A program made the translations under genes and the position numbers. 21,347 bases of DNA from a virus: IMG/VR virus record IMGVR_UViG_3300023216_002983, positions 1-21,347 of that record; one strand, given 5' to 3'. This document shows, piece after piece, positions 1,701 to 21,347 of this stretch. Below the pieces are notes generated by a model that made no database searches, was not told the origin of the DNA, and was given only the letters and a program-made list of their open reading frames with translations. Every line of letters starts with the position of its first letter. Within the stretch, counting starts at the first letter, position 1.

Positions 1701-3119
1701 GTGGCAATTGTAGTTAATAGACAGATAGCCGGTGACTTAAATAACCCATCTGCTGAGTTGCTTAATTTTTGTATCCAACAGCACATGATGGAATTGGCGA
1801 GACTAGAAAGGCTATCAGATTATTACGATGGTAAGCATGACATTCTTAATCGCAAAAAAGAAAATGATGCAGCGCCAAATAATAAAGTGTTGATCAACCA
1901 TGCGAAATATGTAGTGGATATGAACGTTGGTTTTATGGTGGGTAATCCGATTTCTTATGTATCTGAATCAGATAAGAACATATTACCAATCTTAGATGCT
2001 TACGACAGGATTGACATCGTTTCTCATGATACAGAATTAGAGAAAGACCTATCAACATTCGGTGTGGGTTATGAACTTGTGTATTTAAACAAGACAAAGG
2101 AAAACGATGGAACACAATTAGAAATCAAATGTATTGATCCTAGAGGGATCTTCTTGGTGACAGATGACACGGTAGATAAGAACCCTTTATTTGCAGTTCA
2201 TTATCAGCCTGTACTAACGCTACAAGGCGGCGTTGATCACTATGTGGTTAAGTATTACAACGACAATCGAGTGATTACGTATCACGCAAGCTCAAGAGGA
2301 TTTGGTGAATACTCACTAGTGGATGCCAAGCCACATTACTTCAAAGCAGTGCCAGTCATTGAGTATCGGAATAATGAAGAAAAGCAAGGTGACTTTGAAC
2401 AAGCCATTTCTTTGATTGATGCGTACAATCTACTCCAATCCGATCGACTAAACGACAAAGAGGCCTTTGTAGATGCAATTCTGTTTATTAGAGGATTTAC
2501 TTTAGAAGATGGTGATGGCGAGAAGTTGGCGAAAGAAAAGATGCTTCAAACGGCTGCAATGCCTAACGAAGTAGACGCAGGGTATCTTACTAAGGAATTA
2601 AACGAGGATGGCGTTAATCTTTTAAGATCAGCAATCCTTGACGATATCCATAAGATTACCTATGTACCTGATATGAATGATGAGAAGTTTTCTGGAAATG
2701 TTTCTGGTGAAGCTATGAAGTACAAACTGTTTGGCTTACTTCAGCTTATGTCGGTTAAATCACGTTATATGATTAAAGGTTTGAGAAAGCGCATGGAACT
2801 GTTTGAAACAATTTTGAAGGTTACAGACAATTCCGTTGATGCGCAAGGAACGAAGATCAAACTTAAGCCTAATTTACCTGTAAACACTAGCGATATCATC
2901 AATCAAATCGTCAGTGCTTACCAAGCTGGTATCTTACCGCTTAAAGTACTTCTGGGATGGTTGCCAGATATTGACGATGTGGACGAGGTGTTAAAACAGT
3001 TGAACCTTGAAAAAGAAGAAGCTATTGTGATGAACCAGAAAGCATTAGGTGTGCAAGCTGAAGATAGTCATTCGGATTTAGATGATGAGCCAGAGGAGGA
3101 CGAAGGGGATGAAAGCTAG
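1701..3119 (+). CDS. Portal protein, SPP1 gp6 type
   Basis: Predicted to form the dodecameric ring at one head vertex through which DNA enters and to which the neck binds. It uses a GTG start with AGAGGTGAT just upstream. The 472 residues match the SPP1 gp6-like portal family: an N-terminal part with LERLSDYYDGKHDILNRKK and NKVLINHAKYVVDMNVGFMVGNP, a central beta-rich wing/stem region, and a C-terminal part with SGNVSGEAMKYKLFGL followed by helices. The last 25 or so residues are very acidic (DDEPEEDEGDES), as is common in this family. The gene follows TerL and precedes the minor head protein. Its last 11 bases overlap the start of the next gene. Confidence 0.94.
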   Translation: MAIVVNRQIAGDLNNPSAELLNFCIQQHMMELARLERLSDYYDGKHDILNRKKENDAAPNNKVLINHAKYVVDMNVGFMVGNPISYVSESDKNILPILDAYDRIDIVSHDTELEKDLSTFGVGYELVYLNKTKENDGTQLEIKCIDPRGIFLVTDDTVDKNPLFAVHYQPVLTLQGGVDHYVVKYYNDNRVITYHASSRGFGEYSLVDAKPHYFKAVPVIEYRNNEEKQGDFEQAISLIDAYNLLQSDRLNDKEAFVDAILFIRGFTLEDGDGEKLAKEKMLQTAAMPNEVDAGYLTKELNEDGVNLLRSAILDDIHKITYVPDMNDEKFSGNVSGEAMKYKLFGLLQLMSVKSRYMIKGLRKRMELFETILKVTDNSVDAQGTKIKLKPNLPVNTSDIINQIVSAYQAGILPLKVLLGWLPDIDDVDEVLKQLNLEKEEAIVMNQKALGVQAEDSHSDLDDEPEEDEGDES

Positions 3120-3618
3120 GAAGAAACCGGTAGTAGTTGAAGTTGTACAACTAAAAATGCTATCTGCACGTTCTTATCGCAAATGCAAAGAATTTGTTGG
3201 TGAAGCATGGGTTGACCATAATAATATGCCGAATGGATTACCTGGTATTGAAACATTAGAAGGCACAATGGAAATATCTGACGGTGATTACATCATCAAA
3301 GGCGTTCATGGTGAGTTCTATCCATGTAAACCGGATATCTTTGAAGAAACTTACGACTTGATAAATGACGATGGTGCTAAAAATGTCGATGATTCTGACT
3401 ATGGCTTTTTATGGAATGGACCAGAAAAAACTTTGATAGTTAATGGACAAAAAGAAGAACGTATTACTAAAGCTGTAATCACTCTCGTACCATATCAAGT
3501 TGTAAAAGTAGAATTGGAAAAACTTATAACTATGCCAAATGTTGGTGTAATAGGCGAGGTGGATGTCGAAATAAAAGATATCGACTTCGATTCTGGTACA
3601 AGAGGATTGGCAGAGTAA
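3109..3618 (+). CDS. Phage protein of unknown function, apparently two-domain
   Basis: I chose the ATG at 3109 over 3082 because GAGGAGG at 3093-3099 sits at proper distance only from it; this gives 169 residues. Residues 1 to about 90 resemble a widespread small phage protein that begins MKARKKPVVVE and ends with a segment like GDYIIKGVHGEFYPCKPDIF. That family is normally around 100 residues and has no known function. Here a second part of roughly 75 residues follows (from about NDDGAKNVDDSDYG to GTRGLAE) that looks like a separate beta-rich unit. The gene starts inside the portal gene and lies before the minor head gene, a place where small accessory head genes occur. I infer no specific role. 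The reading frame is intact and has a strong ribosome binding site. Confidence 0.8.
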   Translation: MKARKKPVVVEVVQLKMLSARSYRKCKEFVGEAWVDHNNMPNGLPGIETLEGTMEISDGDYIIKGVHGEFYPCKPDIFEETYDLINDDGAKNVDDSDYGFLWNGPEKTLIVNGQKEERITKAVITLVPYQVVKVELEKLITMPNVGVIGEVDVEIKDIDFDSGTRGLAE

Positions 3619-8676: not shown

Positions 8677-9084
8677 ATGTCAAAAAACAACGTAGTACAA
8701 ATGCCAAACACTAAAACATTTCAATTAGGAGAGCTAAATTTACAACTTCGTTTAGACGGTAAATCGATTTTAGCAATCGAAAAGCGCTTAGATGAAGGGA
8801 TTATGGGACTGTTTGTTAAAAAGCAAGGCGAAATCAAATTACCACCAGCCAACAGTTTATTGATTATCTTACAAGGCGCCAATAAAACAAGCGGCGTGAC
8901 AGATAAAGCAATCGTTGATGCGTTCGAGCAATACATTGAATCAGGAAAAACAACGATGGATCTATTTGGTGAAATCAACGACTTCTTGGATGAAGCTGGT
9001 TTTTTCGGAAAGAAAGAAACGGCGAACGAAGCGACAGATGGGGAATCTTTGGATCAAACGAACAGCGAAGACAGTCTTCTGTAA
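8677..9084 (+). CDS. Tail assembly chaperone, G-like (short form)
   Basis: 135-residue zero-frame product (DUF6096-like), the analogue of lambda gpG. It should coat the tape measure during tail tube assembly without entering the virion. The start ATG has AGGAGG upstream. A beta-rich N-terminus (FQLGELNLQLRLDGKSILAIEKRL) and helical C-terminal half are typical. The slippery heptamer T TTT TTC at 9000-9006 (codons for GlyPhePhe) precedes the C-terminal 25 residues, which are polar and low-complexity, as expected for a tail that is replaced in the frameshifted form. The zero-frame stop is at 9082-9084. Confidence 0.86.
   Translation: MSKNNVVQMPNTKTFQLGELNLQLRLDGKSILAIEKRLDEGIMGLFVKKQGEIKLPPANSLLIILQGANKTSGVTDKAIVDAFEQYIESGKTTMDLFGEINDFLDEAGFFGKKETANEATDGESLDQTNSEDSLL
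9000..9006 (+). other. -1 programmed frameshift heptamer (T TTT TTC)
   Basis: In the frame of the G-like chaperone, bases 9000-9006 read T TTT TTC, a canonical X XXY YYZ slippery site. The -1 frame is open from 8994 (a TGA precedes it) through to 9482, so the slip must occur between 8994 and 9084, and this heptamer is the only good candidate there. G/GT frameshifting is a conserved feature of long-tailed phages. Confidence 0.8.
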
Positions 9085-9482
9085 AAAACTTCGATAATCT
9101 ATCCGAAATGCTTGAATTCATGTACCCACAAGCTGTTGAAGCAGGAATCCCTTCTACAGAGTATTGGGGAATGACACTTGAGGAAATCATGATACAAGTT
9201 CAAGCCAACAAGCGGATAAAAGAAAATGAAATGAGAGAGAGGGCATATTTTGATTATGCGCAGCAAAAATTATCAATCTATGCTTTTAACGACCCTAAAC
9301 ACATGCCTGGGTTCGAAGACGCTTATCCTTTTCTCAAACAAATTGAACAGGCGGTTGAAGAAGCGAAGACCGAAGAAGAAACAAAGCAAGAAGCTATGCA
9401 GCGTGAGCAAGAAATTTTCTTGGCCCAAGCTCAGGCTATCAAAGCAACAAGAGAAAGAAGAAAACTCATAGAAGAAAGGTAG
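9006..9482 (+). CDS. Tail assembly chaperone, T part (made as G-T fusion by -1 frameshift)
   Basis: Read from the -1 frame after slippage at 9000-9006. The fused GT protein would have 110 residues of G followed by 158 from this frame, 268 in all. An ATG at 9108 would give a free 124-residue protein, but it lacks a ribosome binding site, and the family-like sequence (NFDNLSEM then LEFMYPQAVEAGIPSTEYWG) begins upstream of that ATG. This supports expression by fusion. The T part ends in a long charged helix (AKTEEETKQEAMQREQEIF). As with lambda gpGT, the T domain should bind tail tube subunits and recruit them to the tape measure. The tape measure gene starts 10 bases later. Confidence 0.82.
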   Translation, partial: RKERNGERSDRWGIFGSNEQRRQSSVKNFDNLSEMLEFMYPQAVEAGIPSTEYWGMTLEEIMIQVQANKRIKENEMRERAYFDYAQQKLSIYAFNDPKHMPGFEDAYPFLKQIEQAVEEAKTEEETKQEAMQREQEIFLAQAQAIKATRERRKLIEER

Positions 9483-9492
9483 GTGAGAAAGC

Positions 9493-12400
9493 ATGGAATT
9501 AGAAACACTTGAAGTCTTATTAGATATCAATACTGCTCGAGTTGAGCAATCCCTAGAGAGTGTATTGCCAAAAATTGAGGGTGCAATGAGTAGAATCCAA
9601 CAAATGTCCGGTAACTCAATGGATCGCACAGAGAAAAATATGGATATTGAAAAAGGCGCTAGCAATTTCACGAAACAATTAGAAAAAATGAATCAAGCAC
9701 TCGAAAAGACGTTATCAAACTTCGAACGATCAACAAAGCAATCGTCTGAAGCGGCTGGTGATAACTTTGCAACAGGTGTACGTAAAGCTCGTCCGAAAGT
9801 GACCAAGGAAATCGATGCGATGGTGAATGAGATCAACGCCAAGATGGGACAAGCGAAAGCAGCACAAGAAAAGGTTGCTTATCTGAAATCGCAAAGGCAA
9901 ACGGCATCTAGTCAAGGAGATACAGGGAAAGTCGTTAAATACGATGAACAAATCGCTCGAGCGCAGGCACAGATGACTAAGTTTCAAGATCAAGCAAAAG
10001 GTATGGGTAATACAATTAAGCGTGAATTAGACGCTGTTCCGTCTTCCTTGGAAAATATAACAAAAGGCATGAGCCAAAACGAAGCCCAAATTGAAGCGAT
10101 GCGAAAACGAATTCGGACGTTGAAGGCGGAGTACAACGACCAACGTGTGCCAACAGGCAGCTTTACATCTGGATTCAAGAATTATGAAGATACTCCTCAA
10201 TCACTGAAAACGTCTGGTGAGATTCAAAAACAATCAATCAAGATGAATAAGCTTATAAGTGATAATGATCGTTTGCAAAAGGAATACGCACAAACTGAAG
10301 ACCGCGCAGACGCACTGAGAAAGGCACTACAACGTGTTAACTCCGCATTAGGACAATCATCCATCCAAACGGGTAACGCCTCTAGCGGCGCTAGTATGAC
10401 GGGTACAGGATTGAAACAATCTGAGCGAGCTGTTTCTAAATATGGCGGTGTATTCAACCGCATGTCCAATGCAGTTTCTCATGGATTTGGGAGCGTCGGA
10501 AATGGCTTAAGGAACTCTCTTGGATTTATTGGAAAGTTCGGAAGTCTATTTTCTAGTAACTCCAATAAAGTAACGGCCGGAACAAACAGAATGACTGGAA
10601 GCACAAACGCTTTTGGCCAGTCAATGAAATACTTGCTACCTTCATTAGTTGTGTATCAATTATTAGGTGGCGCAATCACCAAAATGGCTAGCGGTATGAT
10701 GTCAGCATTGAAAACGAACGATCAATTCAGCGCCTCGTTGAATCAGATTAAAGTCAATCTTATGACGGCATTCTATCCAATATACACGGCAATCTTACCA
10801 GCGTTGAATGCGTTAATGAGTACAGTGGCCCAACTCACGGGGCAGCTTGCTTCATTTATTGCAATGTTATTCGGGACAACCTATGACGCGGCAAAACAAG
10901 GCGCTAGTGGATTGTATGACAATATCCAAGCGCTGAACGATACTGGTTCTTCTGCAAATAAGGCCAATGAGAAAGTCAAAAAACTGCAACGATCGTTAAT
11001 GGGATTTGATCAAATCAACAAGCTAACGATGAATACTGATGATGCAAAGAAAGAAGATCCTGCTCCTGGTATTGATTTTGGGTCTGCAACTGGTAACTAT
11101 TCTACGCCCAAATGGATGAAGGATATTCAAAATATTTTGAAGGATTTCTTCAAACCTTTCCAAGATGCATGGAAAAATCAAGGACAACGAGTGATCGATG
11201 CTTGGAAGTATGCATTAGGTGAAGTAATAGGTCTAGCTTCTGCTATCGGCAAGTCATTTATGGAAGTTTGGACAAACGGAACTGGTCAAAAGTTTATCGA
11301 GAACATCCTTATTCTTTTGGCAGATGTACTCGGAATAATCGGTGATATCGCTGGTGCTTTCAAACGAGCTTGGGAAGACAAAGGACGAGGAACACGCTTG
11401 ATTCAATCCATTTTCGATATGTGGAACCGAATCCTTGAATTGCTTCATGAAGTGGCTGTTGCTTTTCGTAATGCATGGAACGATGGTCGTGGAGAAAGTA
11501 TAGCTGCGAACATCCTTGAAATCTATACGAATATCTTCAACACAATCGGCAACATTGCTGAGCAACTTAAAAAGGCTTGGAAAGAAGGAAAAGTTGGAGA
11601 ATCAATCTTCGGAACAATCCTTGATGCAGTAGATGATTTATTAGGTAATATCAACGGCATGACCAAAGCGACTGAAGAATGGGCGAAGAATCTTGATTTC
11701 ACACCATTACTCAAAGCTATAGATGAATTATTCAAATCGATTCGTCCAATCTTGAAAAATGTAGGTGATGGGCTTGAGTGGTTGTATAAAAACGTATTGT
11801 TGCCACTGGCAAGTTTTTACATTGAAGACTACGTGCCCAAATATTTTGATTATCTATCAGCTGCTCTAGATGTGCTGAACCAAGTGATTGAGATTTTCAA
11901 ACCAATCTTTAAATGGTTCTGGGATGTCGTTATTGTTCCTCTTGCTCAGGTGGCTAAATTCCTGATTATTGGACAAATTGAACTCTTGACAAAAGGGTTA
12001 GAAATTCTTGCTGGCGTGTTAGAAAAAGTTGCTAACGCAGTTAAGAATCCTAAAAAAGCGATTGGTGAACTTAAAGATGTCATAGATGACAAGTTTGGCA
12101 GCATCATGACATTTGTTTCTGATACTTGGGGAAATGTTCAAAAATGGACCAGTGATACTTGGGCCAACGCCAAGAAAACTGTTTCGGAAAAAGCTTCTGA
12201 TATTTGGAAGAATGTTAGCGGACGATGGAGTGACATCAAGAAGAATACCAAAGAAACTTGGGACACTTTTTCTACAGATGTATCAAACAAAGCAAGAACT
12301 GCTAAGGATAATGCATCCAAACGTTTACAAGAACTTAGAACGAACATTTCTGATCGATGGAGTAACGTCAAAAAGAATACCGTTGAAAAATGGAATGAAA

Positions 12401-14385
12401 TACAAGACAAAGTTACAACAGCAGCAGGAAATGCAAAATCAAAAGCAAGTACAGCGTTCTCTAATCTTAAGACTAGTATGGGCGGATCTTTTGAAACAAT
12501 GAAGAAAAATGCTTCTGAAGCTTTCGATAAAATCACTGGTTGGGCAACCGGATTAGGTAGCAAGATTGGTAAAGGTTTGAGCAATGGTGTCAAATCCGTC
12601 AAAGAAGGCGCTGGAAAAATTTTCAACGGAATGGTCGGAGTTATCGGAAAAGGTGTCAACGGTGTAATCAGCGGTATCAACTGGGTACTAAACAAAGTTG
12701 GTGCAGGAAGTAGCGCTTTGAAAAAATGGACAATTCCTACTTATGCTAAAGGTACTGGGTATCATCCAGGCGGCATGGCTCTGGTCAACGACGGACTAGG
12801 TTCTAATTATCAGGAAGCTTACCGGACACCAGATGGACGTACTGGTATCTTTCCGGCGCAAAGAAATCTAATGGTCGATCTACCAAAAGGAACGTCTGTT
12901 TTAAGTGGTCCAAAGACTGCTGCGATGTATGGCGTACCAGCCTATGCAAATGGTATAGGTGAATGGTTTAAAGAGAAATGGAATGGTGCAAAAGAAATTG
13001 CATCGGATATTTGGTCTTATGCATCAAATCCGAAGAAGCTTTTGAATGCTGCAATTTCTAAGTTCGTTAACTTGAAAGGTGCTGTTGAACCGGCTCTATC
13101 AATGGCGAAAGGTTCCGTTGGTACGATCGCAGAAGGTTCTTATGAATGGTTTAAATCGAAGTTCAATGCAGGATATGAAGCACAAAATATTTCGTTTGAT
13201 GGATCAATGGGGAGTTGGGGTGTATACAAATACCTATATGATATCGCTAGAAAAACTGTCGATCGATATCCTGGTATGAGAATCACTTCTGGCTTTAGAC
13301 CAGGTGATCCACATTCCCACGGAAAGCATCAAGCAATTGATGTCGCCTATCCAGCAAGTATGAACGGATCTTCGAAATACTTTGCTCCAGCGAACTGGGT
13401 GTTTGATAACTTTGCTTCAAAAGTAGCTTACGTAATCACTCAAGGTAAAGTTCGAGACCGAAAAGGAATGTCTGGTACTGGATCGAGCGGAAGTTGGGTA
13501 AGATGGCCGCAGAATGACCATTACGATCATTTGCATATCAACGGCTCACTCGGAGCAAGCGACATTGACAAGAATGCTTCGTTTGGTGCATCTGGAGGTG
13601 CAGCAGTTGCTGGTAAGTATGGTTCATCAGTAGAAAGATGGCGTTCGACTGTCAATAGCGCATTGAACAAACTAGGAATTTACTCACTAGCCAATGCAAA
13701 TCGCACGCTTTACCAAATGAAGACTGAATCAAATGGTAACCCTAACGCTATCAACAATTGGGATATCAACGCCAAAAATGGCACACCTTCAAAAGGTTTG
13801 ATGCAGGTTATTGATCCAACCTTTAGAGCATATGCAAGAAGCCCGTACAACAAAAATATTTGGGACCCAATGTCGAATATTTTGGCTTCTATGAGATATG
13901 CATTAAGTCGGTACGGATCATTGGCAGCAGCTTATCGAGGTGTTGGATATGAGAACGGTGGCTTAGTTACTCAAGACGGTTTATATCGTATGGGAGAAGG
14001 CAACAAGAAAGAGATGGTCATTCCACTTGAGAGACCTCAACGTGCTGCTGAACTGATTCAACAAGCTGTTGAGTATCTTGGGCTTGATATGTTCAACTCA
14101 AGCCTTGTTTTGCCAGAAATGTTCACAGAACCGGCAAGTGTATCTAGCATGTCTTCAAGTTTCAACAACCAGAGCACGCCTTCGCAATCAATGGGAACGG
14201 ATGAACTTTATCGCATTCTATTGATGTTGTTGAATCGTCCGGGTAATGGAGGCGGCGACAATCCAACTCCTACAAGAACGGAAGTCAATCTTAAAGTTGA
14301 TCGTGCTACCTTAGCCACAGTTGTACTAGAAGAAATAAAAAAAATTGAGAAACAAACTGGCGTTAATCCAGTAATCGGAAAATAG
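9493..14385 (+). CDS. Tail tape measure protein with M15-like peptidase and SLT lytic transglycosylase domains
   Basis: 1630 residues, the largest gene. It sets tail length and is probably ejected to help DNA cross the envelope. Residues 1-300 are coiled coil (Gln/Lys/Glu rich). A hydrophobic stretch lies near 378-400 (KYLLPSLVVYQLLGGAITKM), with others near 600-620 and 815-840. Residues 560-763 hold seven Trp-marked repeats of 33-35 residues, and 879-967 hold helices with Trp pairs 11 apart. The C-terminal region has two wall-degrading domains: a zinc DD-peptidase fold (M15-like) with His1276, His1279, Asp1283 and a DHLHI motif (His1346, His1348), and a transglycosylase SLT domain with catalytic-type Glu1412 in KTESNGNP and GLMQV. 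Both active-site sets look intact. The zinc-ligand assignment is by motif only. Confidence 0.95.
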   Translation: MELETLEVLLDINTARVEQSLESVLPKIEGAMSRIQQMSGNSMDRTEKNMDIEKGASNFTKQLEKMNQALEKTLSNFERSTKQSSEAAGDNFATGVRKARPKVTKEIDAMVNEINAKMGQAKAAQEKVAYLKSQRQTASSQGDTGKVVKYDEQIARAQAQMTKFQDQAKGMGNTIKRELDAVPSSLENITKGMSQNEAQIEAMRKRIRTLKAEYNDQRVPTGSFTSGFKNYEDTPQSLKTSGEIQKQSIKMNKLISDNDRLQKEYAQTEDRADALRKALQRVNSALGQSSIQTGNASSGASMTGTGLKQSERAVSKYGGVFNRMSNAVSHGFGSVGNGLRNSLGFIGKFGSLFSSNSNKVTAGTNRMTGSTNAFGQSMKYLLPSLVVYQLLGGAITKMASGMMSALKTNDQFSASLNQIKVNLMTAFYPIYTAILPALNALMSTVAQLTGQLASFIAMLFGTTYDAAKQGASGLYDNIQALNDTGSSANKANEKVKKLQRSLMGFDQINKLTMNTDDAKKEDPAPGIDFGSATGNYSTPKWMKDIQNILKDFFKPFQDAWKNQGQRVIDAWKYALGEVIGLASAIGKSFMEVWTNGTGQKFIENILILLADVLGIIGDIAGAFKRAWEDKGRGTRLIQSIFDMWNRILELLHEVAVAFRNAWNDGRGESIAANILEIYTNIFNTIGNIAEQLKKAWKEGKVGESIFGTILDAVDDLLGNINGMTKATEEWAKNLDFTPLLKAIDELFKSIRPILKNVGDGLEWLYKNVLLPLASFYIEDYVPKYFDYLSAALDVLNQVIEIFKPIFKWFWDVVIVPLAQVAKFLIIGQIELLTKGLEILAGVLEKVANAVKNPKKAIGELKDVIDDKFGSIMTFVSDTWGNVQKWTSDTWANAKKTVSEKASDIWKNVSGRWSDIKKNTKETWDTFSTDVSNKARTAKDNASKRLQELRTNISDRWSNVKKNTVEKWNEIQDKVTTAAGNAKSKASTAFSNLKTSMGGSFETMKKNASEAFDKITGWATGLGSKIGKGLSNGVKSVKEGAGKIFNGMVGVIGKGVNGVISGINWVLNKVGAGSSALKKWTIPTYAKGTGYHPGGMALVNDGLGSNYQEAYRTPDGRTGIFPAQRNLMVDLPKGTSVLSGPKTAAMYGVPAYANGIGEWFKEKWNGAKEIASDIWSYASNPKKLLNAAISKFVNLKGAVEPALSMAKGSVGTIAEGSYEWFKSKFNAGYEAQNISFDGSMGSWGVYKYLYDIARKTVDRYPGMRITSGFRPGDPHSHGKHQAIDVAYPASMNGSSKYFAPANWVFDNFASKVAYVITQGKVRDRKGMSGTGSSGSWVRWPQNDHYDHLHINGSLGASDIDKNASFGASGGAAVAGKYGSSVERWRSTVNSALNKLGIYSLANANRTLYQMKTESNGNPNAINNWDINAKNGTPSKGLMQVIDPTFRAYARSPYNKNIWDPMSNILASMRYALSRYGSLAAAYRGVGYENGGLVTQDGLYRMGEGNKKEMVIPLERPQRAAELIQQAVEYLGLDMFNSSLVLPEMFTEPASVSSMSSSFNNQSTPSQSMGTDELYRILLMLLNRPGNGGGDNPTPTRTEVNLKVDRATLATVVLEEIKKIEKQTGVNPVIGK

Positions 14386-14397
14386 GAGGGTGGTAAG

Positions 14398-14760
14398 ATG
14401 GCAAACTTAAGTATCAATGGGAGCGTGGTCAAGCCACCCAAGACTTTTTCAGCAAGTATCCAAACGATTGATGCTGATTCTACTGGAAGAAACGCCAGCG
14501 GGAAAATGATCAGAGATATAATCGCAGAGAAAGTAAAGCTTGATATTGCTTGGGGACCACTATCTGACAGTGAAATATCACAAATACTATCAAAAGTATC
14601 TGCTGCTTTTTTCTCGGTTTCATATCCTGATCCGCAAGTTGGCGGAAATACAACTAAAAGATTTTACGTAGGGGATAGGACTGCCGCTTCATATTCTTGG
14701 AATGATAAGTTTCAAGCTATGAAGTGGGAAGGTTTAACCCTAAGTTTTATTGAGGAGTGA
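14398..14760 (+). CDS. Tail protein, DUF6711-like
   Basis: 120-residue protein with AGGAGGGTGG upstream. The start MANLSINGSVVKPPKTFSAS, the central RNASGKMIRDIIAEKVKLDIAWGPLS, and the segment FFSVSYPDPQVGG followed by KRFYVGDRTAA match a family of small proteins (DUF6711) always found directly after the tape measure in Firmicutes siphophages. Its place suggests a distal tail role, between the tape measure and the hub. No enzymatic motif is visible. Its end (GAGGAGTGA) carries the ribosome binding site of the next gene. Confidence 0.82.
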   Translation: MANLSINGSVVKPPKTFSASIQTIDADSTGRNASGKMIRDIIAEKVKLDIAWGPLSDSEISQILSKVSAAFFSVSYPDPQVGGNTTKRFYVGDRTAASYSWNDKFQAMKWEGLTLSFIEE

Positions 14761-14764
14761 TTAT

Positions 14765-16507
14765 ATGTTGAAATCAAGTATTAAATTCAATGAAGCTTTC
14801 GAGAAAAACGAACGTAAAATTTATGCACGGATCACTATTAATGATCAGTCATTTACTGAAGCTGATATTTTCAATATAAAATTTGAATCTGGAAGTATAA
14901 ACGGACCTGGTTATCAAATCGGGTCTGTTTTTTCTGATTATGTTTCTATCACGCTTGACAAGATAGTTCGCGGAATCAGTGAACTAGACAAAGTAATTGT
15001 TGAGTTGGGTATTGAACGGGAACAAAAAACAGGTTCTGAAGCAAGAAAATATGTGAATAAGACTAACAAAATGAGAATAGGCAGCTATCTGAACAAGATT
15101 TTTTATGATAACCCAATCGAGTACGTTCGGTTAGGCACTTTTTTTGTTAGCGAGCATGTAGATGTTGACGAGAATGAAAAAACAACAACTATAAATTGTA
15201 TGGACTCAGTTTTGTTTCTGGAAGGCACATACAATCCAACGGTAACTTTCCCAGCCAAGCTATTTGATGTAGCCGCAGATGCGTGCTATCAAGCAGGTGT
15301 TGCCATGGATGTTGAAACATTCTTACAACTGCCAGATAAAAAAATCACAACTATACCAACAGACTTAACCATTAGGCAAATGTTGGGTTATATTTCCCAG
15401 TACGTAGCAGGATACATCAAGTTTTCTAAATATGATGTACTTCAACTAAAGAGTGGTAGCGATACTGTGAAGATTATCAATACAGATTTGTACTATTCGA
15501 AAGGCCTAAGCAAAAATGATTTGAAATATAAAATCAGTGGATTGACAAATTCCCCAGCGGGCGATTCGGCTAGTATAACAGTTGGATCTACCACAGGTAA
15601 TCAATTAGAAATCGATAATCCATTTGTTAGTAAAGCTGATTTGCAAGACATATTCTCGCTGCTTAGCTCGATCGAGTATTATCCATTCAATATTGAATGG
15701 CGTGGTATCCCTTCGATAGAAGCAGGAGACTGGATGATTGTCGAAGATATCGAAGGCAATCAATACAAGATACCTAATTTGAAATACACGCTGTCCTATA
15801 ACGGAGGGTTGCGTGCAACTAGTTCAGCAGAAGCAGAAGCAGTTTCGAACGCAACAACAGCATATAAGAGTAAAGCTGATTCTGGGGTCAAAGCTGTAGC
15901 AGCTCAAGTTGCAAGTGTTAAAAATGAAATGATCGACAAAGAAAAAATCATTGAGCAGATTAATTTGTCTGAAGAAAAAGATCCCGACAACAATCCTTTA
16001 CGAATAAATCCTAGAAAAGTAAGAATAAATGCAAACACTGAAATCGATGACAGCTCTATTTCGGGAGAAAAAATTGCTGATATTCAAGCTGAAAAACTCA
16101 AAGGGGAATTTAACGGAAATGGACTAAAGATAAACTTTGATGAACAGTTCATCGAATCTAAGATTGATGATGAAAATAAAGTTAAATTTTCTGACGGGAT
16201 GGTTTCTCTACATAACGCTAGCGAAATTATCTCGAATTTATCTGCGGATCAAATAAGCAATCCGGTTATATTTGATGGCGATTTAGCAATACAAGCTATC
16301 AAAAATACCGATATAGTTTCGTTTGATTATTTGGCAAATGGAAATAATGGATTGGGAATACTACTTTCTGAAGAGTTCGTGGCAGATAGTTCTGTTTTAG
16401 ATTTAGAAGGAAATGTTTCAGAGTCAAAACTAATATATTTACTTTTTTCAGCTATAAAAAACTTGGAAAGTAGAATTGAAGAATTAGAAAGGGTAGGTGA
16501 AGGATAA
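14765..16507 (+). CDS. Tail hub / Tal-like minor structural protein
   Basis: 580 residues from ATG 14765, which has GAGGAG at 14752-14757; the upstream TTG at 14750 overlaps that signal and is unlikely. The N-terminal 350 residues resemble baseplate hub proteins of siphophages (IYARITINDQSFTEADIFNI, then VRLGTFFVSEHVDVDENEKT and TINCMDSVLFLEGTYNP), and would close the tail tip. The C-terminal part is a different style: Ile/Asp/Asn-rich with short repeats such as SSISGEKIADIQAEKL and a final coiled coil (LLFSAIKNLESRIEELERV), likely a trimeric stalk that reaches to the next protein. No peptidase domain is evident, so wall hydrolysis must come from the tape measure. It directly abuts the next gene. 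Confidence 0.8.
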   Translation: MLKSSIKFNEAFEKNERKIYARITINDQSFTEADIFNIKFESGSINGPGYQIGSVFSDYVSITLDKIVRGISELDKVIVELGIEREQKTGSEARKYVNKTNKMRIGSYLNKIFYDNPIEYVRLGTFFVSEHVDVDENEKTTTINCMDSVLFLEGTYNPTVTFPAKLFDVAADACYQAGVAMDVETFLQLPDKKITTIPTDLTIRQMLGYISQYVAGYIKFSKYDVLQLKSGSDTVKIINTDLYYSKGLSKNDLKYKISGLTNSPAGDSASITVGSTTGNQLEIDNPFVSKADLQDIFSLLSSIEYYPFNIEWRGIPSIEAGDWMIVEDIEGNQYKIPNLKYTLSYNGGLRATSSAEAEAVSNATTAYKSKADSGVKAVAAQVASVKNEMIDKEKIIEQINLSEEKDPDNNPLRINPRKVRINANTEIDDSSISGEKIADIQAEKLKGEFNGNGLKINFDEQFIESKIDDENKVKFSDGMVSLHNASEIISNLSADQISNPVIFDGDLAIQAIKNTDIVSFDYLANGNNGLGILLSEEFVADSSVLDLEGNVSESKLIYLLFSAIKNLESRIEELERVGEG

Positions 16508-18055
16508 ATGGCATATCAAAGACATTACTGGAATGATTACGATGAGAGCAAAACTGAGGCGCAGAATATTGAGGCTGGCGCAGTTGTGACAACTGAAAAA
16601 TTGAATGAAATTGAAGAAGGAATTGTTCGAAACTATAATGAACTTGAAATAAAAAAAATGGACAAAGGCGGAAACGAACAAGTTACGATGACAATGCTAT
16701 CACAACAAGTAAAAGAAGCGATGACAGGAGGAAGCGTGGCAGTTGTCGGCGAAGGAGCGGTCAACGTCAGTAATATTGTTCCAAGAGCGGTAACACCTAG
16801 CAAGACAAGTTTCTTCACTAAAAGGTCTGACACTCTGTTTGATGGAGAGTGGGCCAATAGTTTTTATCTGTCGGGATCAGCCAATACAATGAAACTAACC
16901 CGAACAGCAGGATTCAAAACAATGATAGTTCCTTGCTCACCAAACACTACCTATACCATAATCAAAGAACCTATAGCTGCGGAAGATGGAAATTGGTATT
17001 TTAAAATAGCAACATCCAGCATGACAGTGGATTCCTTAAAAAACATTACAGAATCAACAGATATCAACAGTTACTATCAATTTTCTGCAACAAATATTGA
17101 TACAACATTAAAAACATTTTTGACAGGTCCAAACGATAAATCAATCGTTATTGTATGTGCGAAGTCTGCCAACCCATACACCGAATTATTGGTAGGAATC
17201 CAAACTGATTTCAAATACAATGATTATAATAAAATGTTTGATTTAACAGTTGATATACCTGAAAAGAGAATGTTCTTTACCAAGAATGGGGATATTCTTT
17301 TTATTTATACCCATCAAAAAAATGGATGGCTTAGACATACGTACGAAAGATTTATTGATAATAGCATTAATGTAGATGTTTGGAGAGCAACCGATGTTTA
17401 CGTTTGTTCGGTTAATTTCGATCCTCTATATAGCATTACCACGGGGGATAACGAAGGGGTCATAAGGTTAGACGGTGAAAGCGATTATATTGGCGGATGG
17501 CATGGAGACGAGATAGGGCAAGATGTCTTCATTTATGTAGATGACAATTTAATCACTTCAAGCAGTAATTTAAGCGGCTATTGTGATAAAGTTCAAATAA
17601 TCGTCAAGTCAGATATCTATCATGCGGATACTCAAAACTTAGCTTTTATCAAATACAAAGATGTTACTTATAAGGGAAACGAAATACTTATTAAATGCCG
17701 TTGGATTGCGCAAAGCGGTTTTACTGTGCAGCATATACGGGCTGGAATTTATAGTATATACAAGGAGCACAATGGGATTCCGTTAGTAAGTACCATGAGA
17801 AATAACGACACATATCTTATCGATGAACCCGTGCATGGTATAGGGGGAGCAGCAACCATTCAGAATATAATTATGAATGGTAACATCCACTTAAATGTAG
17901 AATTAGAAGATTCTAACAGTCAGCAACGATGGGGGAGTATTACAGACTTTGGCACTAGATATAAGATATATTTAGACAGTTTTGTGAACCAAATTGTGGC
18001 GAAAAACGAACCTTTAAACACGTCAGTTAGAATATATTTAAAGCTAACCGATTAG
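16508..18055 (+). CDS. Tail fibre / receptor-binding protein candidate
   Basis: 515 residues. The ATG follows the previous stop with no gap. The N-terminal 80-90 residues (YQRHYWNDYDESKTEAQNIEAGAVVTTEKLNEIEEGI) are the kind of anchoring head found on many Firmicutes phage fibre and baseplate proteins. The rest is beta-rich and not recognised, with Trp/Tyr/Asp-rich segments such as DGESDYIGGWHGDE that would suit a carbohydrate- or teichoic-acid-binding module. AT-richer composition and rare-codon use compared with the head genes suggest a horizontally exchanged host-range determinant. There is no collagen repeat or autoprotease motif. Function is inferred from position (last tail gene before lysis) and architecture. 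Confidence 0.72.
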   Translation: MAYQRHYWNDYDESKTEAQNIEAGAVVTTEKLNEIEEGIVRNYNELEIKKMDKGGNEQVTMTMLSQQVKEAMTGGSVAVVGEGAVNVSNIVPRAVTPSKTSFFTKRSDTLFDGEWANSFYLSGSANTMKLTRTAGFKTMIVPCSPNTTYTIIKEPIAAEDGNWYFKIATSSMTVDSLKNITESTDINSYYQFSATNIDTTLKTFLTGPNDKSIVIVCAKSANPYTELLVGIQTDFKYNDYNKMFDLTVDIPEKRMFFTKNGDILFIYTHQKNGWLRHTYERFIDNSINVDVWRATDVYVCSVNFDPLYSITTGDNEGVIRLDGESDYIGGWHGDEIGQDVFIYVDDNLITSSSNLSGYCDKVQIIVKSDIYHADTQNLAFIKYKDVTYKGNEILIKCRWIAQSGFTVQHIRAGIYSIYKEHNGIPLVSTMRNNDTYLIDEPVHGIGGAATIQNIIMNGNIHLNVELEDSNSQQRWGSITDFGTRYKIYLDSFVNQIVAKNEPLNTSVRIYLKLTD

Positions 18056-18076
18056 AAACCTGAATGGAGTACAATA

Positions 18077-18157
18077 ATGAAACCATATCAAATCTGGCGG
18101 ACAATCATTCTTGGTTGTCTGCTTTTTTGGCTAGTAGTGTTGTGGATTATATTTTAG
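18077..18157 (+). CDS. 26-residue single-pass membrane peptide
   Basis: A small gene with ATG preceded by GGAG (18066-18069, 7 bases before). It encodes 26 residues: a short polar start (MKPYQIWR) followed by one hydrophobic helix to the stop. The size and position between the fibre gene and the lysis genes recall the tiny membrane peptides that many Gram-positive siphophages carry there, but I know no named family. Its stop codon (TAG 18155-18157) lies inside the first copy of the 14-bp direct repeat. Confidence 0.55.
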   Translation: MKPYQIWRTIILGCLLFWLVVLWIIF

Positions 18158-18163
18158 GAAAGT
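18150..18163 (+). repeat. 14-bp direct repeat, left copy
   Basis: TATTTTAGGAAAGT, identical to bases 18856-18869. It overlaps the stop codon of the 26-residue peptide gene. Together the two copies frame a two-gene cassette with its own terminator. Confidence 0.75.
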
Positions 18164-18192
18164 GCGCTTTATAAAATAAGGAGATGGCATAA

Positions 18193-18363
18193 ATGATCAG
18201 GGCAGAAAATTTATCAAAAAAAGCTTTTAAAGCTGATCCAGATGGGCAAAATAAAATTAAGCTATTTTTAAAAAACTTCCAAAATGATATTATTGAGAAA
18301 GAAACTGGAGGTTTTGAGGTTGAAAATACTAAATATGAAAAAGCAAGTAATGAAAGTCCTTGA
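18193..18363 (+). CDS. 56-residue protein of unknown function (cassette gene 1)
   Basis: ATG at 18193 follows AAGGAG at 18178-18183. The product is 56 residues, charged and hydrophilic (MIRAENLSKKAFKADPDG, ending KASNESP), without membrane segments, Cys pairs or a recognised domain. The next gene starts 43 bases before this one ends, in another frame, so the two are translationally linked. It lies inside the repeat-bounded cassette. AT-rich sequence relative to the tail genes suggests recent acquisition. I do not recognise it. A paired small-protein system is conceivable but not shown. Confidence 0.6.
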   Translation: MIRAENLSKKAFKADPDGQNKIKLFLKNFQNDIIEKETGGFEVENTKYEKASNESP

Positions 18364-18823
18364 CAGCCCATTAGGAAGAAAAATAGTATTAAGCGCTGAC
18401 TTCATCATAAGTGAGGAATTTAATCGTGAATTATTATTGGCTATCAGTTTAGTAGAATTAGAAATGAAAAGTCAAAATATTGATATCGATAAATTGAAAG
18501 GGACTAATTTCATAATTTCTGAAACAGGTCATTTGAGTGTACAGATGGATGATGTCGGCAATTATGTCTATTTTTCAGTAATAAACTACTCGGAGATTAA
18601 AAAATACGAAAATCAAAATAGCAGAATTGCGGTGATAATTGAAGAGTTAGTCCATAATTTTTGGAACTATAGTGATGAAGAAAAAATTAAACTGATTGAT
18701 ATAAAAATTATGAAGAGGTGGAATCAAAATATTGAGCTTGAAGATATATTTGATATGAGTACGATTCAGGATTCTGAAAAGATCAGCTATTTAGTACTTA
18801 CACCCGAAAATTTTGATAAGTAG
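18320..18823 (+). CDS. 167-residue protein of unknown function (cassette gene 2)
   Basis: I choose TTG 18320 because GGAGG at 18307-18311 sits 8 bases before it. An ATG at 18335 has no ribosome binding site. The product is soluble, Ile/Glu/Lys-rich and alpha/beta. A notable motif is IIEELVHNFWNYSDEEK (Glu108, Glu109, His112). It looks like the helix of a zinc protease, but the first His of HExxH is Glu, so catalysis by that mechanism is unlikely. It overlaps the 56-residue gene and is followed 7 bases later by a terminator, which makes a self-contained transcription end. Function unknown; accessory (moron-type) cargo is my inference. Confidence 0.72.
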   Translation: MKILNMKKQVMKVLDSPLGRKIVLSADFIISEEFNRELLLAISLVELEMKSQNIDIDKLKGTNFIISETGHLSVQMDDVGNYVYFSVINYSEIKKYENQNSRIAVIIEELVHNFWNYSDEEKIKLIDIKIMKRWNQNIELEDIFDMSTIQDSEKISYLVLTPENFDK

Positions 18824-18829
18824 TAAATT

Positions 18830-18861
18830 AAGCATACTCAATCGAGTGTGCTTTTTATTTT
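18830..18861 (+). terminator. Intrinsic terminator of the cassette
   Basis: AAGCATACTC (18830-18839) pairs with GAGTGTGCTT (18844-18853) around loop AATC, with one T-G wobble, followed by TTTTTATTTT. It lies 7 bases after the 167-residue gene and inside the direct-repeat boundaries, and would insulate the lysis genes downstream. Confidence 0.82.
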
Positions 18862-18869
18862 AGGAAAGT
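18856..18869 (+). repeat. 14-bp direct repeat, right copy
   Basis: TATTTTAGGAAAGT, identical to 18150-18163. It begins in the T-run of the cassette terminator and ends before the leader of the holin-related gene. Confidence 0.75.
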
Positions 18870-18901
18870 AGTTGGCATATGTTCATTTGGGGGAAATTAG
18901 A

Positions 18902-19366
18902 ATGAAAGAGTTTTTGGAAATCAATAGTTTTTGGGCAGCGGCATTTGGCAGTGGATTGTTGGCTACTCTTTGGCGGGTTGGTACATGGGTCACTAAGCTA
19001 GTTAAAGCTAAAAGGGCTGAGAATGAGCTTAGGGAACAAACAATCACAGCCTTGGAAACGGCAAATACTGAACAAGACAAACGCCTCAAAAGTGTAGAGG
19101 ATTATCAGGCAATGGCAGAAGCCAGAAGTCAGAAAATCGTTAAAGCTGAGAAAGCTTCTTTGCACAATCAAATATGGAACAAAGCAGATGAGTACATTAA
19201 GCGTGGCTATATCACTGTTGGTGAATTAAACAACTTTGATTATCTATTTGAAGCCTATAAAAATCTAGGTGGAAATGGAACTGGCGACACATTACGTGCC
19301 AAGGTATCTAATTTAAATGTACGTGATGAAGGTATTCTGCAACAAAAAGAAATTGATGAACATTAG
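18902..19366 (+). CDS. Holin-related membrane / coiled-coil phage protein
   Basis: 154 residues from ATG 18902, with GGGGGA at 18889-18894; the upstream TTG 18872 would lack a signal. Layout: a short N-terminus, one hydrophobic segment (about residues 8-28, with SFWAAAFGSGLLATLWRVGTWV), a charged coiled coil (about 35-85), and a conserved-looking C-terminal part with FDYLFEAYKNLGGNGTGDTL. This GNGTG-containing type is common in lysis regions of Firmicutes phages, where it is often labelled holin or hypothetical. One transmembrane segment and a following Dp-1-type holin suggest an accessory or anti-holin role. That role is inference. Confidence 0.65.
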   Translation: MKEFLEINSFWAAAFGSGLLATLWRVGTWVTKLVKAKRAENELREQTITALETANTEQDKRLKSVEDYQAMAEARSQKIVKAEKASLHNQIWNKADEYIKRGYITVGELNNFDYLFEAYKNLGGNGTGDTLRAKVSNLNVRDEGILQQKEIDEH

Positions 19367-19377
19367 GAGGAAATATC

Positions 19378-19623
19378 ATGAAATTAACAAACAAACAGTA
19401 TGATCTAGCAAAAAAAGTTTTAACCGTTGGGGTGCCAGGTATCACGGCGTTTATCGTAACTCTAGGTGGTTTATATGGATTTTCAACAGAAATCATTGTT
19501 GGGACGATCACGGCTGCTGCAACTTTAGCCGGTGTGTTCTTGAATATAGCTAGTTCTCAATATCAAGATGATCAGAAACCCGATTATGGTGATGGACAAG
19601 AGTTCACAGAAAAGAAGGAGTAG
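19378..19623 (+). CDS. Holin, Dp-1 type
   Basis: 81-residue protein with two predicted membrane helices (around residues 14-34 and 38-58), a lysine-rich start (MKLTNKQYDLAKKVLTV) and a charged C-terminus (DDQKPDYGDGQEFTEKKE). The motif GLYGFSTEIIVGTITAAATLAGVFL matches the Dp-1-like holin family, in which such pairs form membrane lesions that release the endolysin. AGGAGG precedes the ATG. It lies directly before the endolysin gene, the usual order, with a hairpin between them. Confidence 0.88.
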   Translation: MKLTNKQYDLAKKVLTVGVPGITAFIVTLGGLYGFSTEIIVGTITAAATLAGVFLNIASSQYQDDQKPDYGDGQEFTEKKE

Positions 19624-19642
19624 CCAATCGGCTGCTTTTTTT
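19619..19642 (+). terminator. Hairpin between holin and endolysin
   Basis: AGTAGCC (19619-19625) pairs with GGCTGCT (19630-19636) around loop AATC, with one T-G wobble, followed by a run of seven Ts. The stem includes the holin stop codon. It resembles a weak intrinsic terminator that could make endolysin mRNA scarcer than holin mRNA. Confidence 0.55.
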
Positions 19643-19663
19643 AATTTGAAAGGAAGATATGAA

Positions 19664-20683
19664 ATGACTGTATCAGCAAATACGGTTTTAACCGAAGCAA
19701 GAAAATATCTCGGTACTGTAATGGGAACAACTTCCCACAAAAACATCGTCGATAATTACAATGCAACCAAGCCGCTTCCAGTCGGCTATCAAGTGAAATA
19801 CACCGACGACTGGTGTGATACGTTTGTCAGCTTTATCGGAATTAAAACTGGCGCAACTGATTTAATTGGGCGTGAATGTGGGGTACAGCGTCATATTGAC
19901 ATCTTTAAATCTAAAGGGATTTGGATTGAAGATGGAAGAATCACACCTAAAGCAGGAGACATTGTCTGCTTTAACTGGGATGATTCCACACAACCCAATG
20001 ATGGATGGGCGGATCATATCGGATTTGTTGAATCTGTTTCGAATGGCGTGATCACCACTATTGAAGGCAATTACGGGCGCCAAGTAAAACGGCGTACGAT
20101 GCCTGTAGGATGGGGCTATATCCGAGGGTATGCTCGTCCGGCTTATGGTGCTTCCGCATCCTCTGGTGGCACAGTAGGACAAAAGACGATCGAAACGATT
20201 GCAAAAGAAGTGATCAATGGCGCTTGGGGGAATGGTGACGATCGCAAGAAGAAATTAGCAGCTGCAGGTTACTCTTATGATGCAGTTCAAAAGAAAGTTA
20301 CCGAATTATTAAAAGGATCTTCAAGCAGCCAAGCATCAACCAATCCATTTGCCAATATCGTGATCGATTCTAATTGGGATGGCGAGTTAAATGGTTACCT
20401 TCAACGATACTACGGAACAACCGTGGATAAAGTGATTTCTGGTCAAATAAAAGGTGATTGGAATGCGGGAATGACCGGTATTCAGTTTGGAACCGGAGGT
20501 AGTGATTTAGTCGCAGCAATTCAAAAAGATTTAGGACTGAAGGTCGATCGCAATATGGGACCAGATACCATTGGTTCTATGCAAGCTAAAGCGGGCTCTG
20601 CTGTTGATCGAAAAATTACACGACCATCGGCACTTGCTAAACAGATTAAGACGAACTTAAAAACTAAAGGTAAACCTTGGTAA
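19664..20683 (+). CDS. Endolysin: CHAP domain, CW_7 repeat, C-terminal wall-binding region
   Basis: 339 residues from ATG 19664, with AAAGGAAG before it; the longer frame upstream is read through the holin end and is unlikely. Residues about 5-140 form a CHAP-type peptidase: catalytic Cys51 in DDWCDTFVSF, His118 in ADHIGFVE, and Glu134/Asn136 in IEGNYG. Residues 172-216 match a CW_7 (Cpl-7-type) wall-binding repeat (EVINGAWGNGDDRKKKL, YSYDAVQKKV). After a Ser-rich linker, a third domain of about 110 residues has LNGYLQRYYGT, then VAAIQKDLGLKVDRNMGPDTIG, resembling a peptidoglycan-binding unit. There is no signal peptide, so export needs the holin. It should cleave peptidoglycan peptide or amide bonds at the end of infection. 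Confidence 0.93.
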   Translation: MTVSANTVLTEARKYLGTVMGTTSHKNIVDNYNATKPLPVGYQVKYTDDWCDTFVSFIGIKTGATDLIGRECGVQRHIDIFKSKGIWIEDGRITPKAGDIVCFNWDDSTQPNDGWADHIGFVESVSNGVITTIEGNYGRQVKRRTMPVGWGYIRGYARPAYGASASSGGTVGQKTIETIAKEVINGAWGNGDDRKKKLAAAGYSYDAVQKKVTELLKGSSSSQASTNPFANIVIDSNWDGELNGYLQRYYGTTVDKVISGQIKGDWNAGMTGIQFGTGGSDLVAAIQKDLGLKVDRNMGPDTIGSMQAKAGSAVDRKITRPSALAKQIKTNLKTKGKPW

Positions 20684-20690
20684 ACAAATA

Positions 20691-20728
20691 CCCTCTTACT
20701 CTTAATTGAGTAGGAGGGCTTTTTTTAT
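20691..20728 (+). terminator. Strong terminator at the end of the late operon
   Basis: CCCTCTTACTC (20691-20701) pairs with GAGTAGGAGGG (20708-20718), 11 bp with one T-G wobble, followed by CTTTTTTTATTTT. It lies 8 bases after the endolysin stop. Read in the other direction it also stands after the convergent minus-strand gene, though with a poorer T-run. Confidence 0.9.
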
Positions 20729-21045
20729 TTTCCAGAAATGAATCTGTTGTACTCTTTCATCTTTTCTTTACTGATGCTAAATTTATGATTGCACTCTTGA
20801 CATGTCACCGAAGCATTTTTGGCGAACAAAGGAGCAATTAGTGAAGCTAGCATTATAATTCCTCCAAGTGGAATCACTACAAACCACCCAACAACTGGTA
20901 TCCATATGCCTGTACATATTAAAAGAAAACCTATTCCAAAACCAGCGCAACCCGTTGCTCCTGCCGTTGTCACTTTCACTTTATTGCTTCCACAATTTGG
21001 ACAAGTGACTATACGTTGACCCTTACTTTCCACAATACCCCTCAT
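20725..21045 (-). CDS. Membrane protein with split zinc ribbon (lysogeny-region accessory gene)
   Basis: Convergent to the lysis genes and next to attR. Up to 106 residues from ATG (21045-21043), or 102 from the GTG at 21033-21031, which has GAGG at a good distance; the true start is uncertain. An N-terminal CPNCG (Cys15, Cys18) and a C-terminal CQECNHKF (Cys82, Cys85) would together make one zinc ribbon. Between them is a Gly/Ile-rich hydrophobic region of about 45 residues, likely two membrane helices, so the halves meet on the same side. Similar membrane zinc-ribbon proteins of unknown function are common in Firmicutes. Orientation, location and own promoter suggest expression in the lysogen, possibly altering the host (lysogenic conversion). 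The role is inference. Confidence 0.82.
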   Translation of the reverse strand: MRGIVESKGQRIVTCPNCGSNKVKVTTAGATGCAGFGIGFLLICTGIWIPVVGWFVVIPLGGIIMLASLIAPLFAKNASVTCQECNHKFSISKEKMKEYNRFISGK

Positions 21046-21092: not shown

Positions 21093-21115
21093 GTAAATTT
21101 ACTATCATTGGTTGA
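21093..21115. other. attR: right prophage-chromosome junction inside comGC
   Basis: Phage DNA passes into the host comGC frame here. The frame is closed by TGA at 21090-21092 just upstream, and comGC-like coding begins at about TTGGTTGAAATG (21108-21119), where the pilin consensus Phe-Thr-Leu-Val/Ile-Glu-Met is expected. The exact core cannot be fixed without the left junction or an empty site. Lactococcal phage TP901-1 (serine integrase) is remembered to use a site in the same pilin-start motif. Confidence 0.65.
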
Positions 21116-21347
21116 AATGCTAGTCGTTTTATTAGTGATCAGTATTTTGGTTTTGTTGTTTGTCCCAAATCTTGCCAATCAAAGAGGAATCATTGATGAG
21201 AAAGGAAATGCGGCGATCGTGAAAGTAGTGGAAACCCAGATCGAACTCTTTCGTCTAAATGAAGATCGGGTGCCTTCGAAAGAAGAATTGATTGCAGAAG
21301 GGTATGTATCTGAGGAACAATATGCGATTTATGAGCAGGGAAAGTGA
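21108..21347 (+). pseudogene. comGC: 3' part of host comGC, split by the prophage
   Basis: The frame from 21108 to the stop at the window end gives 79 residues: a pilin N-terminal helix (VEMLVVLLVISILVLLFVPN) followed by a small C-terminal globular part (AAIVKVVETQIELFRL). This is a ComGC/ComYC-type major competence pseudopilin. The start, leader peptide and prepilin-peptidase site (Gly-Phe) are missing, having been left on the other side of the prophage. TTG 21108 is a sequence accident, not a start with a ribosome binding site. If expressed, the product could not be processed as a pilin. In an uninfected cell the gene should be intact and needed for DNA uptake. Confidence 0.85.

Follow-up and report, generated by a model that had tools for sequence, protein, structure and literature searches.

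Why do two small genes lie between perfect copies of a short direct repeat, at the very point where the tail genes of a prophage give way to its lysis genes? The locus belongs to a viral stretch of 21,347 nucleotides, hereafter called the window. The original prediction took the gene pair, orf1-orf2, to be a mobile or recombinational cargo unit, a moron, bounded by the repeat. We consider it likely that the site is a module joint of Enterococcus-type prophages, at which a short linker guides the exchange of the flanking modules, and that orf1-orf2 is an optional passenger between two copies of this linker.

Layout of the window

The features around the joint are the following.

16508..18055, + strand: tail-end structural protein, 515 aa; the left neighbour, whose kind varies among relatives
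18077..18157, + strand: peptide of 26 residues, MKPYQIWRTIILGCLLFWLVVLWIIF, with a single membrane segment; retained with the left linker in relatives
18096..18128, + strand: left intrinsic terminator (hairpin 18096-18123 plus T run), inside the ORF of the 26-residue peptide
18150..18163, + strand: left repeat copy, core of the left linker; in L002 and L004 it is followed by AGGTG, as in the right linker; the window differs there
18193..18363, + strand: orf1, 56 aa (63 aa in relatives), of no family
18320..18823, + strand: orf2, 167 aa; start codon TTG, preceded by GGAGG; 44-nt overlap with orf1; relative of phrog_33355/phrog_25707
18830..18858, + strand: right intrinsic terminator (hairpin 18830-18853 plus T run)
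18856..18881, + strand: right linker, TATTTTAGGAAAGTAGTTGGCATATG; repeat copy at 18856-18869, then an RBS-like sequence and ATG
18902..19366, + strand: first gene of the lysis module, phrog_4105/4257, of unknown function; 82-98% identity to 20 relatives, cassette carriers and others
19378..20683, + strand: holin (Phage_holin_Dp1) and CHAP/CW_7 endolysin

The 14-bp repeat, TATTTTAGGAAAGT, occurs at both predicted positions (18150-18163 and 18856-18869), and the whole window holds no further match with up to two mismatches. Between the copies we recovered the two overlapping genes and the terminator (18830-18853) as described, and the left copy indeed covers the stop codon (TAG) of the 26-residue ORF. 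The terminator inside that ORF had escaped the original prediction; with 12 pairs (ΔG -17.2 kcal/mol, z -5.4) it is stronger than the right one (10-pair stem, ΔG -13.5, z -6.7). This short ORF contains a complete intrinsic terminator, and both ORF and hairpin are retained in relatives, the stem being maintained by G-U pairs in L002. Rfam and tRNA searches returned nothing.

From the left terminator to orf1, the + strand gave no sigma-70 promoter match, and the region held as many promoter-like sites as shuffled sequences did, a number not above background. Since a promoter of the cassette was not found, read-through from the late operon appears likelier and is the simpler assumption for how the two genes would be expressed.

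Elsewhere in the prophage, three further observations deserve mention. Its right end lies inside comGC (window 21108-21347; NF040999, E 4e-29), so integration interrupts the major competence pilin gene. Between the endolysin and the attachment site, a lone gene on the - strand (20725-21045) encodes zinc-ribbon ends and membrane segments; this stretch is ~92% identical in one relative (L023), and the gene is a candidate for lysogenic conversion. Finally, an ORF of 178 aa (3082-3618), lacking an NCBIfam match, lies between the portal and the next head gene, overlaps the portal end, and is possibly another passenger gene.

Could the repeat be fortuitous? Among simulated 3.7-kb regions with matched trinucleotide composition, 4.5% contained at least one exact 14-bp repeat within 1 kb, which renders the repeat suggestive by itself, not compelling. 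The earlier claim that chance is improbable is thus borderline on statistics; it was comparison with relatives that settled the matter in its favour.

A linker at the tail/lysis joint

Using the first lysis gene as query, we retrieved 20 IMG/VR loci that carry it over its whole length. In all 20, the lysis gene is directly preceded by a match to the right repeat copy and to what follows that copy (consensus TATTTTAGGAAAGTAGGTGGCATATG), and to the left of this match the loci are unrelated to the window, save for one cassette carrier (L006, which is on the contig of L005). In the cassette-free loci, BLAST matches start at 18841-18857, with the exception of L007 (start 18831), which also shares the cassette's terminator hairpin with the window; homology to the lysis modules begins within ~15 bp of the linker in all cassette-free loci but one. 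The 14-bp repeat is accordingly the core of a linker of ~26 bp, which includes the TATTTTAG part, carries a ribosome binding site and start codon at its end, and is conserved before five kinds of lysis module. The exact pattern TTTTAGGAAAGTAGGTGDCATATG (linker plus start codon) was present in 12 viral contigs, with several different first lysis genes downstream. In a set of 37 contigs, some of them near-identical (e.g. L014-L019), the linker has well over ten types of tail-end gene (by rough clustering) on its left and five kinds of first lysis gene on its right, which identifies it as the joint between tail and lysis modules. A short identical sequence with unrelated flanks in several phages is what defines a boundary-sequence joint, and the linker has this property. 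Virus contigs are fragments, some represent the same phage sequenced again, and the loci were collected via searches for the lysis gene, the cassette and the linker, so these frequencies are not population estimates.

In L002, the left copy runs on as TATTTTAGGAAAGTAGGTG, which equals bases 1-19 of the right linker, and in L004 it does so with one change; both copies thus represent one and the same linker. In the window, the left linker is interrupted after 14 bases; extended, the two copies form a repeat of 23 nt at 87% identity. Beyond the 14 bp the left copy is imperfect, L005 and L047 have altered versions of it, the left variant of L003/L029 is weak, and L002 lacks the right linker. The perfect identity over 14 bp is a coincidence of which parts of a longer linker remained. 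A short frame, MFIWGKLE (window 18879-18905), starts at the linker's ATG, and its stop overlaps the ATG of the lysis gene at 18902; the frame is similar in relatives, and a leader peptide is conceivable.

In most of the cassette-free loci that were folded, a terminator hairpin precedes the linker, with a sequence that varies by phage. Unrelated hairpins stand directly before the same linker in L009, L010, L012, L013, L014, L021, L022, L024 and others, and hence the tail/lysis terminator seems to be a retained feature whose sequence is free to change. A membrane-spanning peptide before the linker was also considered for phages of the L010/L022 type and dropped: they have no conserved ORF there, only the terminator.

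Might the linker be conserved solely as a regulatory and translation signal, a terminator tail followed by a ribosome binding site that happens to be used twice, with recombination being incidental? That the linker carries both ribosome binding site and start, and that hairpins of unrelated sequence precede it in most folded cassette-free loci, would be expected under such an explanation. Against it, conservation reaches into the T-rich part upstream of the ribosome binding site, and module boundaries repeatedly fall on the linker. As a full account we regard this as possible yet doubtful; it does not exclude linker-guided exchange, and a role as translation signal could in part underlie the conservation of the linker.

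An optional cassette and its products

The original prediction had anticipated relatives with one repeat copy and no cassette. Three contigs (L036, L037 and L038) have precisely this arrangement, the 26-residue ORF being followed by one linker and then directly by the lysis genes; in a further contig (L048), only the end of the peptide ORF is retained before the linker. Full-length orf2 was found at the joint in six contigs including the window, where its neighbours comprise five tail types and four lysis types. One of these stretches, that of L029, recurs in an Enterococcus-group genome (G053). The host group is assigned as Enterococcus by the one named relative. Were the two genes a fixed component of these phages, they should be present in all relatives and diverge like their neighbours; instead, they are missing from most relatives, and their divergence is quite unlike that of the adjacent genes. 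None of the relatives found combines an empty site with both the tail and the lysis genes of the window.

The closest comparison comes from L040, which shares 99.92% identity with the window across 8685-18383 (9.7 kb). A deletion between two copies of GAAGAAAAA (9-bp microhomologies) has removed 302 bp of its orf2; past this gap, near-identity resumes up to 18881, and from the linker on a completely different lysis module follows. Such a one-sided switch at the linker is what a boundary-sequence exchange should look like, although this evidence is comparative, not experimental. Other carriers are remodelled in different ways: in L047, a relative of orf1 is followed directly by terminator and linker, orf2 being absent; L005 combines a broken orf1 with intact orf2. 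L040 itself retains intact orf1 beside the deleted orf2.

The cassette itself is mosaic. From 18623 onward, the end of orf2 and the terminator share 92-94% DNA identity with L003/L029, and orf1 together with codons 1-100 of orf2 is ~60% identical to all relatives, with synonymous change saturated. Judged by substitution rates among relatives (dN ~0.07, dS 0.4-0.5 [0.41-0.47]), orf2 is under purifying selection.

These features match a moron in that the genes are present in one genome and absent between adjacent genes of a relative (L036/L037/L038), and in that they bring a terminator of their own (18830-18853). The moron-like reading of the original prediction is therefore largely right: the cassette is an optional, moron-like unit at the tail/lysis joint, with neighbours that differ on both sides. 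What did not hold up is a mobile unit with its own ends, as the repeat belongs to the joint, the leader before the lysis genes, whether the cassette is present or absent.

What might orf2 do? Its residues 1-142 match the phrog_33355 profile (1-145 of 152, E 1e-5), as do all five members tested, and a distant homologue matches it at E 2e-12; phrog_25707 is matched as well, and both families are of unknown function. Distant homologues are 22-28% identical to orf2. The 28% relative, from another Bacilli genome (L051/L053), belongs to a contractile-tail prophage, where it separates the tail fibre from the holin/lysin genes, and the 22% relative lies in the tail region of L060/L064. All family members retain the motif EExxHxFxNxxDE; in place of the HExxH of zincins, EExxH is found in eight of eight aligned sequences. 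Two AlphaFold models (mean pLDDT 59.5 and 64.9, pTM 0.64 and 0.62), searched with Foldseek against the PDB, both ranked zinc peptidases of the gluzincin kind on top (E 0.01-0.9, none significant), the best matches being M1 aminopeptidases and other zinc peptidases (E > 0.001). A degenerate zincin-like fold, suggested by these models, is a weak lead.

Other searches added little. With the cassette genes, nothing exceeded threshold in Pfam, NCBIfam and PADLOC; orf2, compared by tblastn with phage (50,697) and plasmid (72,556) records, gave no matches or spurious ones only; a PDB sequence search produced chance matches; and nothing credible emerged for phrog_33355 in 296 or for phrog_25707 in 399 genomes. 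A search for the EExxH pattern at the DNA level yielded mostly unrelated proteins, with L060 as the sole true new relative. Matches to an slr1658 regulator and to OGG were sub-threshold and inconsistent across members, and a GHKL-type N-box reading of EELVHN, prompted by one weak match in one member, was dropped.

One may ask, then, whether orf2 is an accessory tail or lysis protein, possibly a degenerate gluzincin (EExxH for HExxH), whose position is retained because the protein is required late in infection. Its distant homologue between tail fibre and holin genes of the unrelated contractile-tail prophage, the other in the L060/L064 tail region, and the first rank of zinc peptidases for both models are in keeping with this. 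Foldseek E-values of 0.01-0.9 on models of mean pLDDT 60-65 argue for caution, though, the first zinc-ligand His of gluzincins is a Glu in orf2, and the gene is missing from most relatives; we deem this explanation possible yet doubtful. Less probable still is the full combination, namely an unrecognised family of phage proteins (EExxHxFxNxxDE), with the fold of a degenerate zinc peptidase, that recurs at the tail/lysis joint of unrelated phages as a late tail or lysis factor.

A small upstream gene overlapping a larger one in an optional cassette also recalls a toxin-antitoxin pair that stabilises the prophage. Yet orf2 is intact beside a broken orf1 in L005, orf1 lacks its partner in L040 (deleted) and L047 (absent), and the cassette genes match no toxin-antitoxin or PADLOC family; as each ORF occurs without the other, in conflict with a type II system, we rate this option as very improbable. 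Very improbable, too, is a self-inserting mobile element with the 14-bp repeat as target-site duplication or element end, a notion that draws on presence/absence among relatives and the single copy at the empty site. Against it speak the lack of any recombinase or transposase match for orf1 or orf2, the same linker before the lysis genes of phages without cassette, the right side that changes independently of the cassette in L040, and left copies that differ between alleles.

Probable linker-guided exchange and known systems

We return to linker-guided module exchange with an optional passenger. The observed linker, joint, presence/absence pattern and neighbour swaps can be assembled into the following scheme. 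TATTTTAGGAAAGTAGGTGGCATATG stands between a tail module, usually ended by a terminator, and a lysis module; as the same linker precedes different modules, phages that share nothing but the linker can exchange everything on one side. Exchange would probably proceed by annealing-type (ERF/RecT) or other short-homology recombination. ERF is encoded in four and RecT in two of 11 related records, the cassette carriers G002, G1106 and G053 among these, and De Paepe et al. describe Rad52-like phage recombinases, Erf and RecT included, as working independently of RecA and tolerating diverged sequence (PMC3945230); we infer that such enzymes also act where the joint measures no more than 26 bp. Flanked by a linker copy on either side, orf1, orf2 and the terminator form a passenger that is optional and non-essential; recombination of one copy with the other would generate the cassette-free state of the relatives, and orf2, possibly a degenerate zincin-like protein, may have an accessory late role. 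Given the altered left copies, the missing right linker of L002 and the weak variant of L003/L029, some events were not simple linker exchanges.

What makes the locus of wider relevance is that it provides a clean natural case for a long-standing and contested idea, that the exchange of phage modules is guided by short sequences shared at gene borders: one small linker is combined with many tail types, five lysis modules and a passenger cassette that is full, partly deleted or empty. In addition, orf2 draws attention to a family of uncharacterised proteins encoded where tail and lysis genes meet in distant phages.

How does this compare with known systems? Boundary sequences are short conserved sequences at the module borders of phage mosaics (summarised in PMC3029335). 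As in these, a short identical stretch lies between unrelated modules and is the proposed site of homologous exchange; here, however, it is a terminator-tail/RBS linker at one specific joint, that of tail and lysis genes in Enterococcus-type prophages, and two copies bracket a cassette. A moron, present in one genome and absent from a relative, consists of an ORF flanked by promoter and terminator (PMC3029335). In our cassette, too, optional genes separate what are direct neighbours in relatives, and a terminator of its own is present, but a promoter was not found, a terminator is also present upstream, and a linker copy lies on both sides. A further parallel is gene 68 of mycobacteriophage Island3, an extra gene relative to Brujita with a short repeat on either side, which has been explained by recombination of one repeat with the other (PMC3029335). 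An extra insert within a short repeat is common to both; in Island3, the repeat is the C-terminal coding end of a neighbouring gene, whereas in the window it is a leader/RBS linker. Morons and boundary sequences being established ideas, the present case is a well-supported new example of a known route of phage evolution.
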